Part shown: positions 49,350 through 60,555 of the stretch, in pieces
How positions within the stretch are numbered: the first letter of the stretch is position 1
Layout: the number at the start of each line of letters is the position of its first letter
Assembly (NCBI RefSeq): GCF_022834715.1
Contig: NZ_BQKC01000001.1
Span: forward strand, 1,710,501-1,774,500
Length of the DNA stretch: 64,000 bases
DNA from: Granulimonas faecalis
GTDB lineage: Bacteria > Actinomycetota > Coriobacteriia > Coriobacteriales > Atopobiaceae
Direction: 5' to 3'
Program-made: the position numbers and the translations under genes
Notes under the pieces: model-generated
The model's database searches: none
Seen by the model: the letters and a program-made list of their open reading frames with translations, nothing else
Told to the model about the DNA's origin: nothing

Positions 49350-49649
49350 GCCAACGCCTCCCAGGTCCCAGCCAAGCTGTTCAATCCGTGAACAGCAAGC
49401 CGGGTCCATGGGGGTGGGGCGCCCCCTCCTTCCGTTGGAAGCCATGTCGGCCCCTTCCTTCTCGGCGGGGGCCCGGTGCCCCCTTCATTAGGGGCTGTGT
49501 AAAAACTGCGGACCGTTTTCGCAGGTAGATGCGGCTATGAGCAGGGGCTTGGGGGGCGTTGGGGGGCGCGGCTCCCCAGCCGTCGCGACGCCGCCACCGG
49601 GTTCCGGAGCGAGGAGACACGGCCGAGAGGATCCCGGTGCGCCGCCCTG

Positions 49650-49915
49650 TCCATCGCGGGCCCGCACCGGTCCGGCGGGGCGCGGCGAAGGGCCTCCGAT
49701 GCGCGACGACTCCGCGAAACATGTCGGATGCGCGGTCCGGACACCCCGAAAAGGACCCAGTGCGCGATTTCCGGCGTTTTTCGCGCATCGGGGCCCCATC
49801 GACGAGAAACCGTCACGCATCGGAGCCGCCTCACCGAGCCATCGCGCATCGGGCCCCTTTCGACGCAGGGCCATCGCGCATCGGCGCTGCCTCGCCGCAC
49901 GGGATCGGCCGGGGC
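49650..49915. repeat. Array C of the degenerate ~31-bp repeat
   Basis: Three forward units (GCGGCGAAGGGCCTCC then GATGCGCGAC; GTCGGATGCGCGG; CCAGTGCGCGATTT) meet four reverse units (TCGCGCATCGGGGCCCC, TCACGCATCGGAG, TCGCGCATCGGGCCCC, TCGCGCATCGGCG) around a centre near 49775. It lies between the MerR gene and the LexA-boxed helicase gene. Confidence 0.75.
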
Positions 49916-49955
49916 GCCAAGGCCCCGCCACGGGGCGCCCACCTCGCGGTCGTTA

Positions 49956-49984
49956 GAACACCTGTTCCGTTTTGGCGCTATGAT
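49956..49984 (+). promoter_or_regulatory. LexA (SOS) box and promoter of the Pif1-type helicase
   Basis: GAACACCTGTTC (49956-49967) fits the Gram-positive LexA/DinR consensus GAACNNNNGTTC. TATGAT at 49979-49984 is a candidate -10 just downstream, 33 bases before the ATG at 50018, so LexA would block polymerase there. Confidence 0.75.
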
Positions 49985-50017
49985 GGAACGGCCGTGCCCA
50001 GGGGAGACGGAGGAACC

Positions 50018-51418
50018 ATGGCGCCAGAGCCCGATAACACCCGCGACGAACCGGAGACGGACGCGGCCGACCCGTGCCAGCGGGCCGCCATCGAGGCCAT
50101 CGTGGCCGGCGAGAACGTCTTTCTCACCGGCGGCGCCGGCTGCGGCAAGTCATTCGTGATCCAGGAGGCCCGACGCCGCCTCAAGGAGCTCCGCCGCAAC
50201 GTCGTGGTGTGCGCCCCCACCGGCATCGCCGCCGTCAACGTCGGCGGCACCACCGTGCACCGGGCCTTCCACCTGGGCATCGGGGTCCTCGGCAGGGACA
50301 GCCGCCTCAGGGTGCGCGAGCCCGTCTCGGAGGCGGACGTCGTCGTCATCGACGAGGTCTCCATGCTGCGGTGCGACGTCTTCGACGCCGTCACGGCGAT
50401 TCTCCGCAAGGTGCGGCCCCGGCCCCAGCTCGTGGTGGTGGGCGACTTCTCGCAGCTCCCGCCCGTCACCGCCGGCAACGACCTCGACGCCCTGCGCGAC
50501 GAGTACGGCCTCCTCTGGCGCGGGCCCTTCGCCTTCCAGGGGCGCACCTGGGCCTCCTGGGACTTCCACCCCTTCGTGCTCACCCAGTGCCACCGCCAGC
50601 AGGACGCCGCCTTCCTCGACGCCCTCACCAACCTGCGCAAGGGCGACCGCGCCACGTGCCGCTGGATCTGGGAGCAGGCGCGCCACGACCCCATCCCCGG
50701 CGCGCCCTTCGTGGCCGCCACCAACCGCGTGGTGGACCGCGTGAACCAAGAGCGCCTCGCCGCCCTCACCGGCCAGGAGCACGTGTACCGCTCCGAGCGC
50801 AGCGGCGAGTTCGGGTGCGGCAACCCCGTGGACGAGACCGTGGTCCTCAAGCGCGGCGCCCGCGTGGTGTGCTGCAAGAACGACCCGCAGGACCGCTTCG
50901 TCAACGGGTCGTGCGGCGAGGTGGTGGGCTTCTCGGGATCCAAAACGGTGCGGGTGCGCCTGGACTCCGGAGCCACCGTGGCCGTGGAGCCCGTCACCTG
51001 GAGCGCCGTGGACTACGAGTACGACGAGGACGAGGGCGAGCTCCGCGAGGTGGAGCGCGGCACCTTCACCCAGATGCCCCTGCGGCTGGCCTGGGCCATG
51101 ACCATCCACAAGACCCAGGGCCTCACGCTGGACGCCATGAACCTGGACCCGGTGTGCTTTGAGAACGGCCAGCTCTACGTGGCCCTCTCACGGGTGCGGT
51201 CCGTGGGCGACCTCGCGCTCACGCAGCCGGTGGACCCCCTCTGGCTCAAGGTCGACCCCGAGGTGCGCGCCTTCCACCGGCAGGTCTGGGAGACCTCCCA
51301 GGCATGGGACCCCTCGGAGCACACGGTCAAGACCGAGTGGCGCCCCAAGGGCCGGCGCCGGGTATGCGCCCGGGTGCGTCCCAAGCCCAAGCCGCGGCGC
51401 GGGCCGTTCCCGGGCTGA
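50018..51418 (+). CDS. Pif1/RecD2-like superfamily 1 DNA helicase
   Basis: 466 aa ATPase. Walker A GGAGCGKSF near residue 45, then CAPTGIAAVNVGG, Walker B VVIDEVSML, GDFSQLPPVTAGND, and motifs TIHKTQGLTLDAMNL and LYVALSRVRS near the C-terminus, which are the Pif1/RRM3 signature set. Basic C-terminal tail (RPKGRRRVCARVRPKPKPRR). GGAGGAACC precedes the ATG. The open frame runs 150 codons further upstream but only through repeat array C. Probably helps replication or repair of structured DNA under SOS control. Confidence 0.92.
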   Translation: MAPEPDNTRDEPETDAADPCQRAAIEAIVAGENVFLTGGAGCGKSFVIQEARRRLKELRRNVVVCAPTGIAAVNVGGTTVHRAFHLGIGVLGRDSRLRVREPVSEADVVVIDEVSMLRCDVFDAVTAILRKVRPRPQLVVVGDFSQLPPVTAGNDLDALRDEYGLLWRGPFAFQGRTWASWDFHPFVLTQCHRQQDAAFLDALTNLRKGDRATCRWIWEQARHDPIPGAPFVAATNRVVDRVNQERLAALTGQEHVYRSERSGEFGCGNPVDETVVLKRGARVVCCKNDPQDRFVNGSCGEVVGFSGSKTVRVRLDSGATVAVEPVTWSAVDYEYDEDEGELREVERGTFTQMPLRLAWAMTIHKTQGLTLDAMNLDPVCFENGQLYVALSRVRSVGDLALTQPVDPLWLKVDPEVRAFHRQVWETSQAWDPSEHTVKTEWRPKGRRRVCARVRPKPKPRRGPFPG

Positions 51419-51815: not shown

Positions 51816-52625
51816 TCAGCGGGCCAGCACCGTGTAGCGGTTGAGCTCGCCCGACCGACCGTCCGCCGAGAAGCGCCCCGCCTCGCGCACGCCGGGGGCC
51901 GCGGCCGTGGCGGCGGCGACCAGGCGGTCCAGCTCGGCCTCGTCCACGGCGTGGCAGAACCGGAACACGCCCTCCTCGCCCTGCCATCCGAGGAACGCGT
52001 CGCCCGGGCCCAGCCGCCCCGCGAGCCCCGGCCACCGGGCCAGCGCGTCGGCCGTGGCCCCCCGGGCCTTCTCCGCCAGGCGCCGGTCGTCGAGGAACCT
52101 CCAGCACGACGCCGCAGCGACGCCGCCCGGTGCCAGCGCCCGGGCCAGGCCCTCCATCACGGCACGGCGCCCGCGGAAGCCGGTGAGATGGTGCAGCAGC
52201 CCGAAGGCCACCGCCATGTCGAAGGCCCCCTCGAGCGCCGCCGGCAGCCCCCATCCGTCGCCGAACTCGGCCGCCACGACCTCCGCCGAGAGACCCGCGG
52301 CCGGCCCATCCGACCCGGCACCCGCCCCGTCGCCGGCAGCGCCCGCCGCCAGCCCCGGCTCGCGGTCCAGGCCCACGGTCTCCACGGCCGCGCAGGGCAG
52401 CAGGCCCTCCAACCAGCGCTCGAAGCGCAGGTTGCCGCAGCCGAGGTCGAGCACCCGGAGCGCCCGGCCCTCGTCGGCCGCCCGACGCGCCACGGCACGC
52501 AGCGGCCCCTCCAGCCGCGACCACCCCGGCCAGCCGCCCGTGCGCGTCGTCGAGAAGCTCTCGCCGTACCGGGCGTAGAACCCGGCCGTGAGCCGGTCCG
52601 CCAGCCGTGCCGCCCTCTCGTCCAC
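51816..52625 (-). CDS. Trm9/ALKBH8-like class I methyltransferase
   Basis: 269 aa. The N-terminus FYARYGESFSTTRTGGWPGW carries the FS-x-TR-x-x-x-WP pattern that, to my knowledge, marks Trm9/ALKBH8 methyltransferases. Motif I follows as VLDLGCGN (residues 58-65), then FGLLHHL and LAPGGVAAASCW. The C-terminal RFCHAVDEAELDRLV and NRYTVLAR segments align with the Trm9 Y/F-x-H-x-F-x-E-x-E-L region. Trm9 methylates cm5U34 in tRNA made by Elongator. It is divergent from elp3, 165 bp away. A generic methyltransferase remains possible. Confidence 0.72.
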   Translation of the reverse strand: MDERAARLADRLTAGFYARYGESFSTTRTGGWPGWSRLEGPLRAVARRAADEGRALRVLDLGCGNLRFERWLEGLLPCAAVETVGLDREPGLAAGAAGDGAGAGSDGPAAGLSAEVVAAEFGDGWGLPAALEGAFDMAVAFGLLHHLTGFRGRRAVMEGLARALAPGGVAAASCWRFLDDRRLAEKARGATADALARWPGLAGRLGPGDAFLGWQGEEGVFRFCHAVDEAELDRLVAAATAAAPGVREAGRFSADGRSGELNRYTVLAR

Positions 52626-52790
52626 CGCGCCTCCCGCCGTCGCCGCCCCATGGCCCGCTCCATGGCCCGCTCCCGGGCCCCGTTGCTATACACTGCTCTG
52701 CGCACCACCGTACCAGCACCGGGACCCGGCACGCTGCCGCGGCGCCCGGTCCGGCGCCACCCCGCCCCCACCTGAGAGGAGCCGTCCGCC

Positions 52791-54605
52791 TTGGACCGAA
52801 GACACCCGGACGCCCCCTCCCCCGAGGCCGCCATCCTCGACCTTGCCGCCGAGCTCCGGGGCCGCGACGACCTGCCCGACGAGCGCTGGCTCCTGCGCTT
52901 CATCCGCTCCCGCAACGCCGGCGTGACCGACACCTCGCGCCACCTGAGCAAACGTCGGCTCCTCCCCTACCTCCTAGCCCGGGAGGAGGCCGACCCCGGC
53001 CACTGGGAGCGCCTGGGCGTGGACGACGTCTGCCGGGAGCGCCTGGTGAGGCTGCTGCGGGCAAAGCCCCGCCGCACGGCATCGGGTGTGGCAACGGTCA
53101 CGGTGATCTGCAAGCCGTGGCCCTGCGCCGGCCGCTGCCGCTACTGCCCCTGCGACATGCGCATGCCCAAGAGCTACCTTGCCAACGAGCCGGCCTGCCA
53201 GCGGGCCGAACAGGCATTTTTCGACCCCTACCTGCAGGTTTCCGGCCGCATCGCCACGCTGCACTCCATGGGGCACCCCGTGGACAAAGTGGAGCTCATC
53301 GTGTTGGGCGGCACGTGGGACGACTACCCGCTGCCCTGGCGCCGCTGGTTTGTCGCGCGGCTTTTCGAGGCCCTGAACGATGGCTGCGGCGCGGCGGCCC
53401 AGTCCGAGCGCCAGCGACTGCGCGACCTCTACCGGGAGCGGGGCTTCTCGGCCGTCGGGGAGCGCCGGGCCGAGGAGTGCGCAGGCGTGCAGGCTCCTGT
53501 CGCTGCCGGCGAGCTCTCCTACAACGCCGCATGGAAGCGCCTCTACGGCACCGATTCGCGCTGGCGCGCCTTGGCCGAGGAGCACCGGGCCGGCTGGGAC
53601 CGCGTGGAGGCGGCCCATCGAGCCAACGAGGACGCCGCCTGCCGCTGCGTGGGGCTCTCGCTGGAAACGCGGCCCGACGCGGTGAGCGAGCAGAGCCTCT
53701 ATGCCATGCGCTGGCTGGGCGCCACAAAGGTGCAGCTGGGCGTGCAGAGCCTGGACGGCGACCGGCTCTTTGCCAGCGACCGCTCCGCCGACGCCGACTG
53801 CGTGGCCCGCGCCTTCTCCCTGACCCGGCGCCACGGGTTCAAGGTCCACGCCCACATGATGGCCAACCTACCCGGCGCCACGCCCGAGGCGGACAAGGCC
53901 GACTTCGCCCGCCTGATGGGCGACCGGCGCTTCCGTCCCGACGAGGTGAAGCTCTACCCCTGCACCCTCATCGCCGGCACCGCCCTGGAGCGCGACTGGC
54001 GGGCCGGGCTCTGGCGCCCCTACACCCGCGACGAGCTCATCGACGTCATGGCCGCCGACGTCGCCTCCTGCCCTCCCTACCTGCGCATCTCCCGCATGAT
54101 CCGCGACTTCTCCGCCAAGGACATCGTGGCCGGCAGCCGCGAGGCCAACCTCCGCCAGGCCGTGGAGGACCGCCTCGCCGCCGAGGGGCGCCCCGTAGCC
54201 GAGATCCGCCAGCGCGAGATCGCAGGCGCCGAGCAGGACCCAGACTCGCTCTCGCTGGCCACCTTCCCCTACGCCACGGCCGACACCGAGGAGCGCTTCC
54301 TCTCGTGGCAGGCGCCGGACGGGCGCATCGCCGGGTTCTGCCGCCTGTCGCTGCCCCATGGCGGCGGGGTTGCCATGATCCGCGAGCTCCACGTATACGG
54401 CCGGGTCTCGGAGCTGGGCCAGGTGCAGCCGGGCGCCCAGCACCGCGGCCTGGGGCGTGCCCTTGTCGAGGAGGCCTGCGCCCAGGCGGCACGAGAGGGG
54501 TACGGGGCCGTGGACGTCATCAGCGCCGTGGGGACACGCCCCTACTACCGGAGGATCGGCTTCTCGGACCACGGCCTCTACCAACGGCGGCGGCTGCGGG
54601 GATAG
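52791..54605 (+). CDS. elp3: Elp3-type radical SAM/acetyltransferase (tRNA U34 modification)
   Basis: 604 aa. Radical-SAM domain with CAGRCRYCP (Cys112, Cys116, Cys119) and KVELIVLGGTWDDYP, LSLETRPD, LGVQSLDGDRLF and VHAHMMANLPGATPE in order. The C-terminal GNAT/KAT domain (about 500-604) has QHRGLGRALVEEACAQA and PYYRRIGF. Elp3 uses acetyl-CoA and radical chemistry to make cm5U at tRNA position 34. TTG start at 52791 with AGAGGAG upstream. There is an extra segment of about 60 residues (about 205-265) before LSLETRPD. Probably cytoplasmic. Confidence 0.93.
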   Translation: MDRRHPDAPSPEAAILDLAAELRGRDDLPDERWLLRFIRSRNAGVTDTSRHLSKRRLLPYLLAREEADPGHWERLGVDDVCRERLVRLLRAKPRRTASGVATVTVICKPWPCAGRCRYCPCDMRMPKSYLANEPACQRAEQAFFDPYLQVSGRIATLHSMGHPVDKVELIVLGGTWDDYPLPWRRWFVARLFEALNDGCGAAAQSERQRLRDLYRERGFSAVGERRAEECAGVQAPVAAGELSYNAAWKRLYGTDSRWRALAEEHRAGWDRVEAAHRANEDAACRCVGLSLETRPDAVSEQSLYAMRWLGATKVQLGVQSLDGDRLFASDRSADADCVARAFSLTRRHGFKVHAHMMANLPGATPEADKADFARLMGDRRFRPDEVKLYPCTLIAGTALERDWRAGLWRPYTRDELIDVMAADVASCPPYLRISRMIRDFSAKDIVAGSREANLRQAVEDRLAAEGRPVAEIRQREIAGAEQDPDSLSLATFPYATADTEERFLSWQAPDGRIAGFCRLSLPHGGGVAMIRELHVYGRVSELGQVQPGAQHRGLGRALVEEACAQAAREGYGAVDVISAVGTRPYYRRIGFSDHGLYQRRRLRG

Positions 54606-55671: not shown

Positions 55672-55896
55672 TTAGTGCTTGAGCTTGTCGCCCAGGCCCT
55701 TGGCCACGTCGCCGGCCTTGTCGGCGAGGTCCTTGGCGACGTCGGCGGCCTTGTCGGCACCCTCCTTGGCGCCGTCGGCGGCCTTGCCGGCCACGTCCTT
55801 GGCGCCCTCGCCCAAGTCCTTGGCGGCGTCGGCGGCCTTCTCGGCCAGGTCCTTGGCGCCGTCGGCCACCTTGTCGGCCATCTCCTTGAAGTCCAT
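55672..55896 (-). CDS. LEA-like 11-mer repeat peptide (74 aa)
   Basis: 74 aa built of Ala/Lys/Asp-rich repeats (KDLAEKAADAA, KDVAGKAADGA, KDLADKAGDVA), forming one long amphipathic helix like LEA or apolipoprotein-type stress proteins. AAAGGA six bases before the ATG at 55896. It has its own terminator, so it is a monocistronic gene. No cysteine, no signal peptide. Likely a cytoplasmic stress or membrane-surface peptide, by analogy only. Confidence 0.8.
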   Translation of the reverse strand: MDFKEMADKVADGAKDLAEKAADAAKDLGEGAKDVAGKAADGAKEGADKAADVAKDLADKAGDVAKGLGDKLKH

Positions 55897-56013
55897 GACA
55901 GGTCCTTTCGGTCGGAGCCCTCGGGGCTCGTGGTGGTCCGCCTGCGGCGGTCCCGGTTCTGCCTTTGGTACCCGCCGAGAAGGGCGTCTTTCGCCCCAAG
56001 GGCCCATCCATCA

Positions 56014-59418: not shown

Positions 59419-60555
59419 GTGTGGGCAAACCAATGGGAGCCACCGGGAACGGAGCGGAAGCAATTTGCCTGGCGTTGCTACGAGGAGCGGTTCGGTACGG
59501 GCAGCTGCGTCAACCGGGACATCGAGCAGGTACTCAACGACCTTGAGGAAGGAAAAACCGAGATTCCCGACTTCGACATGCTTGTCGGTGGGTTTCCCTG
59601 CCAGGACTACTCCGTTGCCCGCCCAAAGAACCAAGCCTCGGGAATAGAGGGCAAGAAGGGCGTGCTCTGGTGGTCCATTTACCGGCTTCTGCATCTCAGG
59701 AAGCCCCGGTACCTCCTCCTCGAGAACGTCGACCGCCTCCTCAAAAGCCCGGGCAACCAACGTGGCCGCGATTTTGCCATCATGCTCTCGTGCCTTGCCG
59801 AAGAGGGGTACTCCGTTGAATGGCGGGTGATTAACGCCGCAGACTACGGAATGCCCCAGAAGCGCCGCCGCGTCTACATCTTTGGAGAGCTCGCCGACAG
59901 GACCTGGGACCTCCCTGACCGCGTCATGGACAGCGGTCTCTTTGCCAAAGCCTTCCCGGTTCTCCCCGCAGTGGGCGGTCGCGGGTCGTTCTCAGTGGAC
60001 AAGGATCCCTATGAGGTGAGCAAGACCTTTGGAAGGGGCCTCACCGTCTCGCCATTCATGAACGCCGGGGCCATGCAGAACGGCACGGTGTTCACCGCCA
60101 AAACGTTCGCTACCTATGAGGGCAATCGAATGACCCTTGGTGACCTTCTCGTTCCTGACGCCGAGGTCCCGGCAGAGTTTTTTATCGAGGAGGACAAGAT
60201 CCCCGCATGGGAAGCCGGGCGCGCTGCCAAGCGTATCGACCGTGTGTCCAAGAGCGGCCACCCCTACGTCTATACCGAGGGCTCCATGCCCTGGCCCGAC
60301 CCGACGGACAAGCCCGCCCGCACCATTCTCACAAGCGAAGGTGGCAAGGGGGCCAGTCGCATGAAGCACGCTGTGCGAGGCGACTCCGGCCGCATCCGCA
60401 GGCTGGTGCCGGACGAACTCGACCAAATTCAAATGTTTCCCAAGGGTTGGACCAACACCGGGATGACAGACGGGCATCGAGCCTTCTGCATGGGGAATGC
60501 GCTCGTGGTGGGTATCCCGCACCGTCTGGGCGAGGAGCTGGCAAAGCGGCTGTAG
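59419..60555 (+). pseudogene. C5-cytosine DNA methyltransferase, N-terminus missing
   Basis: Dcm-type methyltransferase. Motif IV GGFPCQDYS (catalytic Cys), motif VI LLENVDRLL, motif VIII MPQKRRRVYIFGE and C-terminal motifs LDQIQMFPKGWT and GNALVVGIP are intact. It begins inside the region FKTVWANQWEPPG; motif I (FxGxG, AdoMet binding), normally about 25 residues upstream, is absent, and the frame is closed by TAG at 59386. GTG at 59419 is only a nominal start. It should be unable to bind AdoMet. Codon use looks less G+C-biased than its neighbours, suggesting an acquired restriction-modification remnant. Confidence 0.85.

Follow-up and report, generated by a model that had tools for sequence, protein, structure and literature searches.

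The divergent gene pair at positions 51,816–54,605 of the window, as we call the whole 64,000-nt stretch of Granulimonas faecalis DNA analysed here, raises the question of whether a bacterium can make mcm5U-type wobble uridines with two proteins only. In eukaryotes, Elongator/Elp3 makes cm5U34, and Trm9, which requires Trm112, then methylates it to mcm5U34. MnmE–MnmG, which makes cmnm5U34, acts at the same tRNA position and in the same role as the pathway considered here. Side chains of the cmnm5 and mnm5 type have been assigned to Bacteria and those of the mcm5 type to Eukarya (PMC5400242; PMC2584109). The initial annotation of the locus proposed that a full Elp3 and a Trm9-like methyltransferase could make mcm5U-type uridines here, in place of or besides MnmE/MnmG, and that an insert in Elp3 might stand in for the missing Elongator subunits. 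The evidence presented below sustains the two-protein route with respect to the Trm9 match, the linkage and the lack of MnmE and MnmG matches over cut-off; the product is still a prediction, and the role given to the insert is not supported.

Both open reading frames lie where they had been placed by the initial annotation, and their arrangement is indeed divergent. The methyltransferase gene occupies 51,816–52,625 on the minus strand (269 aa, GTG start), and elp3 occupies 52,791–54,605 on the plus strand (604 aa, TTG start), preceded by a clear ribosome-binding site, GAGAGGA, at 52,774–52,780. The 165-bp region that separates them (52,626–52,790) harbors an AT-rich TTGCTATACACT patch near 52,683–52,694, which could possibly be a promoter region common to both genes; scanning the same intergenic region for the sigma-70 consensus gave no match. 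Plasmid-borne copies of the pair were also searched for, and none were found.

Sequence and structural model together confirm that the plus-strand gene encodes a full Elp3, radical SAM plus KAT, as annotated, for which formation of cm5U34 is predicted. The protein scores 394.2 bits against the NCBIfam ELP3 model TIGR01211 (cut-off 350), domain searches recover both the rSAM C-terminal and the GNAT domains, and solved Elp3s align to it at E-values of 1e-70 to 1e-81. The radical SAM motif CxxxCxxC (C112, C116 and C119; 53,124–53,147, plus strand) is invariant in 21 aligned homologues, as is K387-L388-Y389 (53,949–53,957, plus strand), which is equivalent to the K316/Y318 pair of the human rSAM site, whose roles have been described (PMC13315578). 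All 21 homologues also keep the GNAT-domain motifs QHxGLG and GTRxYYR, and KLYP is present in all 44 Elp3s of the order to which the window belongs. The AlphaFold model (pLDDT 87) matches archaeal, bacterial and eukaryotic Elp3 structures with Z scores of 34–42, the next radical SAM family reaching about 14; the top match is the Elp3 of M. infernus (Z 41.8, 401 residues, rmsd 2.2). On the ELP3 model, the Elp3s of the order score about 200 bits below those of other lineages of the phylum.

A peculiar feature of this Elp3 is the insert, which had been put at about 60 residues. Its existence is borne out by how far apart the rSAM-domain motifs GGTW and ETRP lie: the median spacing is 114 residues in the 44 Elp3s of the order versus 45–50 elsewhere; about 65 extra residues are thus present in 44 of 44 proteins. 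The insert covers approximately residues 199–271 (53,385–53,603, plus strand) and is predicted with high confidence to be helical, with helices at residues 201–216, 223–238, 244–252 and 256–262 (pLDDT ~87–97 in the AlphaFold model). The Elp3 of Dehalococcoides mccartyi (5L7J/6IA6), which is likewise a stand-alone bacterial protein with the same rSAM/KAT architecture (Z ~38–40), lacks the insert when aligned with the window protein. Likewise, no insert is seen in the Elp3s that are paired with a Trm9-like methyltransferase, whether these come from Patescibacteria or from three further families of the phylum. Since pairing occurs without it, replacement of Elongator subunits does not require the insert, and we reject that explanation as unsupported. 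The insert is a lineage feature, perhaps one that is used in tRNA binding.

The methyltransferase belongs to class I of the SAM-dependent enzymes, and NCBIfam and Pfam assign only generic domains (Methyltransf_12, 23, 25 and 11) and no specific name to it. A family profile was needed for its identification, because a search of the PDB with the single sequence placed Trm9 first but at an E-value of only 0.014. When a profile of 27 family members (31–50% identical to the window protein) was compared with 177,635 PDB sequences, Trm9 of Yarrowia lipolytica (5cm2_Z) came first at 6.1e-10, followed by the next match at 1.3e-5, and the relationship to Trm9 suspected earlier therefore holds in a profile comparison. 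The AF2 model (pLDDT 90) is less discriminating. The Trm9 chain 5cm2_Z ranked second in Foldseek, and VIA-align gave Z scores above 16 to many methyltransferases, METTL6 and NTMT1 being above Trm9; absence of a protein from the VIA-align list is no evidence either way. Judged from this model, structural alignment alone does not set Trm9 apart among class I methyltransferases.

The two motifs on which the annotation had relied are both present, FS-x-TR-x-x-x-WP as F-S-T-T-R-T-G-G-W-P at residues 24–33 (52,527–52,556, minus strand) and the C-terminal H-x-V-x-E-x-E-L as H-A-V-D-E-A-E-L at residues 225–232. The important residues in them are not there by chance, since they are conserved among the 27 family members. 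For comparison with the yeast enzyme, we used what we take to be its sequence, in which the five published residues stand at the published positions. Mutation of these residues (R29, H115, R241, Y243 and N271) impairs tRNA binding and kcat (PMC5372719). In the alignment, R28 within FSTTRTGGWP corresponds to R29, H145 of the HH motif (residues 145–146; 52,188–52,193, minus strand) to H115, R222 of RFCH (residues 222–225; 51,951–51,962, minus strand) to R241, and N262 (51,840–51,842, minus strand) to N271. The equivalents of these four residues, which are assigned to the binding of tRNA and cm5U, are kept in every alignable protein of the order and, with few exceptions, in 80 homologues from outside; the position of R28 in particular is occupied by Arg in 44/44 relatives of the order and in 6/6 and 80/80 other Trm9-like proteins. 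None of six E. coli methyltransferases used as outgroups has the full set. At the position of Y243, where yeast Trm9 requires Tyr, the window protein has C224, and Cys is found in all 42 alignable proteins of the order. The position varies (Y, V, I, F or C) in other bacterial Trm9-like proteins that are linked to Elp3.

In a phylogenetic tree, a 94/95 branch separates the Trm9-like proteins of Patescibacteria, archaea, yeast and the window from the six E. coli enzymes, a small and long-branched outgroup; the methyltransferases of the order form a long branch that is joined by a Chloroflexi MAG sequence. The archaeal structure 6F5Z was dropped as a Trm9 reference, as it represents a different Trm112 partner, Hvo_0019. 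In view of the long branch and of Cys standing in for Y243, we use the name 'Trm9-like' and do not speak of a strict Trm9 orthologue. With that wording, the assignment of 51,816–52,625 (minus strand) to a Trm9-like methyltransferase is supported by sequence comparison, and conversion of cm5U34 to mcm5U34 is its predicted activity.

The two genes are inherited together to a striking extent. Among 61 genomes of the family, the methyltransferase is present in 33, Elp3 in 33 and both in 32, and across 296 genomes of the phylum both occur in the same 23 and no genome has one alone (Fisher p ~5e-15 and ~1e-34, respectively, not corrected for relatedness). The two single-gene genomes of the family (G001 and G015) both have the gene on fragmented contigs, and a sensitive HMM recheck of the fragmentary contig did not find the missing partner. 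Where both genes could be mapped in family genomes, they are divergent throughout, most of them less than 200 bp and a few 2.5–4.4 kb apart. Six of the 23 carriers in the phylum belong to three other families; these encode an Elp3 of the canonical kind, scoring 600 bits, and a methyltransferase that is shorter and closer to Trm9, again divergent where both are on one contig. Beyond the phylum, 80 loci were returned when GTDB genomes were scanned using a mixed alignment; they come mainly from Patescibacteria, with a few from Ignavibacteriales, Chloroflexi and archaea. Elp3 is encoded in the flank of 61 of these loci, divergently in 60 of the 61, the median gap being 44 nt. Conserved linkage, on which the initial proposal depended, is thus evident as near-perfect co-occurrence and adjacency in the family, the phylum and the outside loci. 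That distant phyla repeat this arrangement strongly indicates a function common to both genes.

Some loci depart from the usual pattern. In one genus (L083/L115 in G231 and L081/L112 in G316) elp3 lies upstream of the methyltransferase gene and has the same orientation, and the linkage is therefore independent of a shared divergent promoter. One relative, G346, carries two Trm9-like methyltransferases (L070 and L091), of which only L070 adjoins Elp3; the substrate of the second copy could differ. A locus titled Lysobacteraceae (L175) comes from a 0.7-Mb genome, probably a mislabelled MAG, and its Trm9-like methyltransferase sits on a deep branch.

If the pair modifies wobble uridines, the distribution of the other genes acting at this position becomes of interest. 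In the suggested check for mnmE and mnmG, none of the 61 genomes of the family had MnmG over cut-off, and none of 21 relatives had MnmE over cut-off; weak MnmE matches in the latter span the GTPase domain only. At an E-value of 1e-60, MnmG occurs in 53 of the 296 phylum genomes but in none of the 23 pair carriers (chance of no overlap 0.009), and at 1e-30 it is missing from 26 of the 27 outside genomes with a Trm9-like methyltransferase. The remaining one, an Ignavibacteriales MAG (L146 in G366), has a full MnmG along with the Elp3–Trm9-like pair, possibly through contamination. The window's genome encodes MnmA, so that the 2-thio group can be added. CmoB was not found at 1e-5 in this genome, nor over cut-off in any of 21 genomes, and consequently no cmo5U is expected by the known route. 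A search of the window's genome for Trm112 (PF03966, a model of 40 positions) gave nothing over cut-off, the best match, of 19.4 bits, falling within an open frame of 870 residues. In approximately 27 of the 61 family genomes, Elp3 and the Trm9-like methyltransferase are both missing and MnmG does not pass the cut-off either; wobble uridines in these may be unmodified at C5 or modified via some other route.

Taken as a whole, it is probable that the two proteins constitute a pathway leading through cm5U to mcm5(s2)U34 in place of MnmE/MnmG, without Elongator subunits or an identifiable Trm112. Elp3 alone would use SAM and acetyl-CoA to place a carboxymethyl group onto C5 of U34, yielding cm5U34, presumably in the tRNAs for split-box codons that end in A or G; formation of cm5U34 from acetyl-CoA and SAM has been reconstituted with an archaeal Elp3 alone (PMC13315578). 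The Trm9-like enzyme would then methyl-esterify the carboxylate of cm5U34 with a second SAM, giving mcm5U34, and would presumably do so independently of Trm112; with the 2-thio group added by MnmA, the result would be mcm5s2U34 in the Lys, Glu and Gln tRNAs. Since the pair is inherited as a unit and MnmE/MnmG is mostly absent, bacteria that carry the pair probably make mcm5U.

The proposed pathway shares with the eukaryotic one, consisting of Elongator (Elp1–6) and Trm9/ALKBH8–Trm112, a homologous Elp3 and carboxyl methyltransferase, the conserved catalytic residues and the same predicted chemistry. It differs in being encoded by two genes, with no Elongator scaffold and no Trm112 above cut-off, and in having the additional helical insert in Elp3 and Cys in the position of Trm9 Y243. 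In bacteria, Elp3 is the only conserved part of Elongator (PMC13315578). A closer parallel is found in archaea, where Elp3 and a predicted Trm9 are present in H. volcanii and S. solfataricus, with the genes clustered in the latter (PMC2584109); there, as here, a stand-alone Elp3 is accompanied by a Trm9 homologue, and in our survey a Thermoproteota locus (L194) also has a Trm9-like gene with an Elp3 neighbour. In contrast to the archaeal system, the bacterial pair is usually divergent, extends over Patescibacteria as well as parts of the window's phylum, and would be combined with thiolation by MnmA instead of Tuc1/Ncs6. MnmE–MnmG, in turn, has unrelated chemistry and proteins and gives no match over cut-offs here or in relatives.

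Could the two proteins nevertheless do something else? One might envisage that the methyltransferase acts on another wobble or tRNA substrate, for instance on cmo5U34 in the manner of CmoM, while Elp3 independently makes cm5U or ncm5U. CmoM is indeed also a class I methyltransferase esterifying a U34 carboxyl, and enzymes of the CmoA/UbiG type have the same fold. However, the CmoB pathway is absent from this genome and its relatives, the tree with the six E. coli outgroups leaves CmoM of E. coli outside the Trm9-like group, and none of the phylum genomes has the methyltransferase without Elp3, which makes such a role quite improbable. The generic fold, with its high Z scores to many methyltransferases, would also suit a small-molecule or protein methyltransferase lying next to elp3 by genomic accident. 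That the adjacency is accidental is very hard to reconcile with identical phylogenetic profiles over 296 genomes, with a divergent order repeated in unrelated phyla and with the conservation of the Trm9 residues, and we regard it as highly improbable.

Another explanation is that both proteins modify U34 but that the end product in the order differs, for example by amidation of the ester to ncm5U, the Cys and the insert being signs of altered chemistry or tRNA choice. The invariant Cys (42/42 alignable proteins) and the helical insert (44/44 Elp3s) do co-occur and are specific to the order, whose Elp3s also have the lower scores on the ELP3 model. Still, in other Trm9-like proteins linked to Elp3 the residue at the position of Y243 varies freely, and the remaining catalytic residues are unchanged, so that a different product appears unlikely. 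Going further than the locus itself, and with somewhat less confidence than we place in the two-protein mcm5(s2)U34 pathway, we favour the view that mcm5U/mcm5s2U34 is the normal wobble modification of the order and of many Patescibacteria, made by a compact Elp3–Trm9 pair, shared horizontally or since ancient times, that has neither Elongator scaffold nor Trm112 and replaces MnmE/MnmG, and that the eukaryotic pathway is an elaboration of this module.

Both protein families and their chemistry are already known, and the pathway has been predicted in archaea (PMC2584109). In our literature search we found no paper describing an Elp3–Trm9 pathway in bacteria, although others may exist, and according to a 2017 review the methyltransferases that partner with Trm112 have no bacterial homologues (PMC5372719). 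If the proposed pathway is real, a conserved bacterial Elp3–Trm9-like pair would break the division of side chains between Bacteria and Eukarya and would explain how split boxes are decoded in bacteria without MnmE/MnmG. In addition, Elp3 chemistry and Trm9 would become open to study in a system of two proteins, without all of the Elongator/Trm112 machinery.

Other features of the window were recorded as well. At 49,781–49,897, there are two direct copies of 56 nt (77% identical, spacing 61) together with further, inverted TCGCGCATCGG-type repeats, situated towards the 5′ end of the open frame for a PIF1-like helicase (49,559–51,418). A C-5 cytosine DNA methylase gene (PF00145) lies a few kb downstream of the pair, at 59,419–60,555. 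Finally, a 111-residue protein composed of AKDLAEKAADAAKD-type repeats is encoded by the open frame at 55,672–56,007 (minus strand); it has no Pfam match and resembles small LEA-like or stress proteins.
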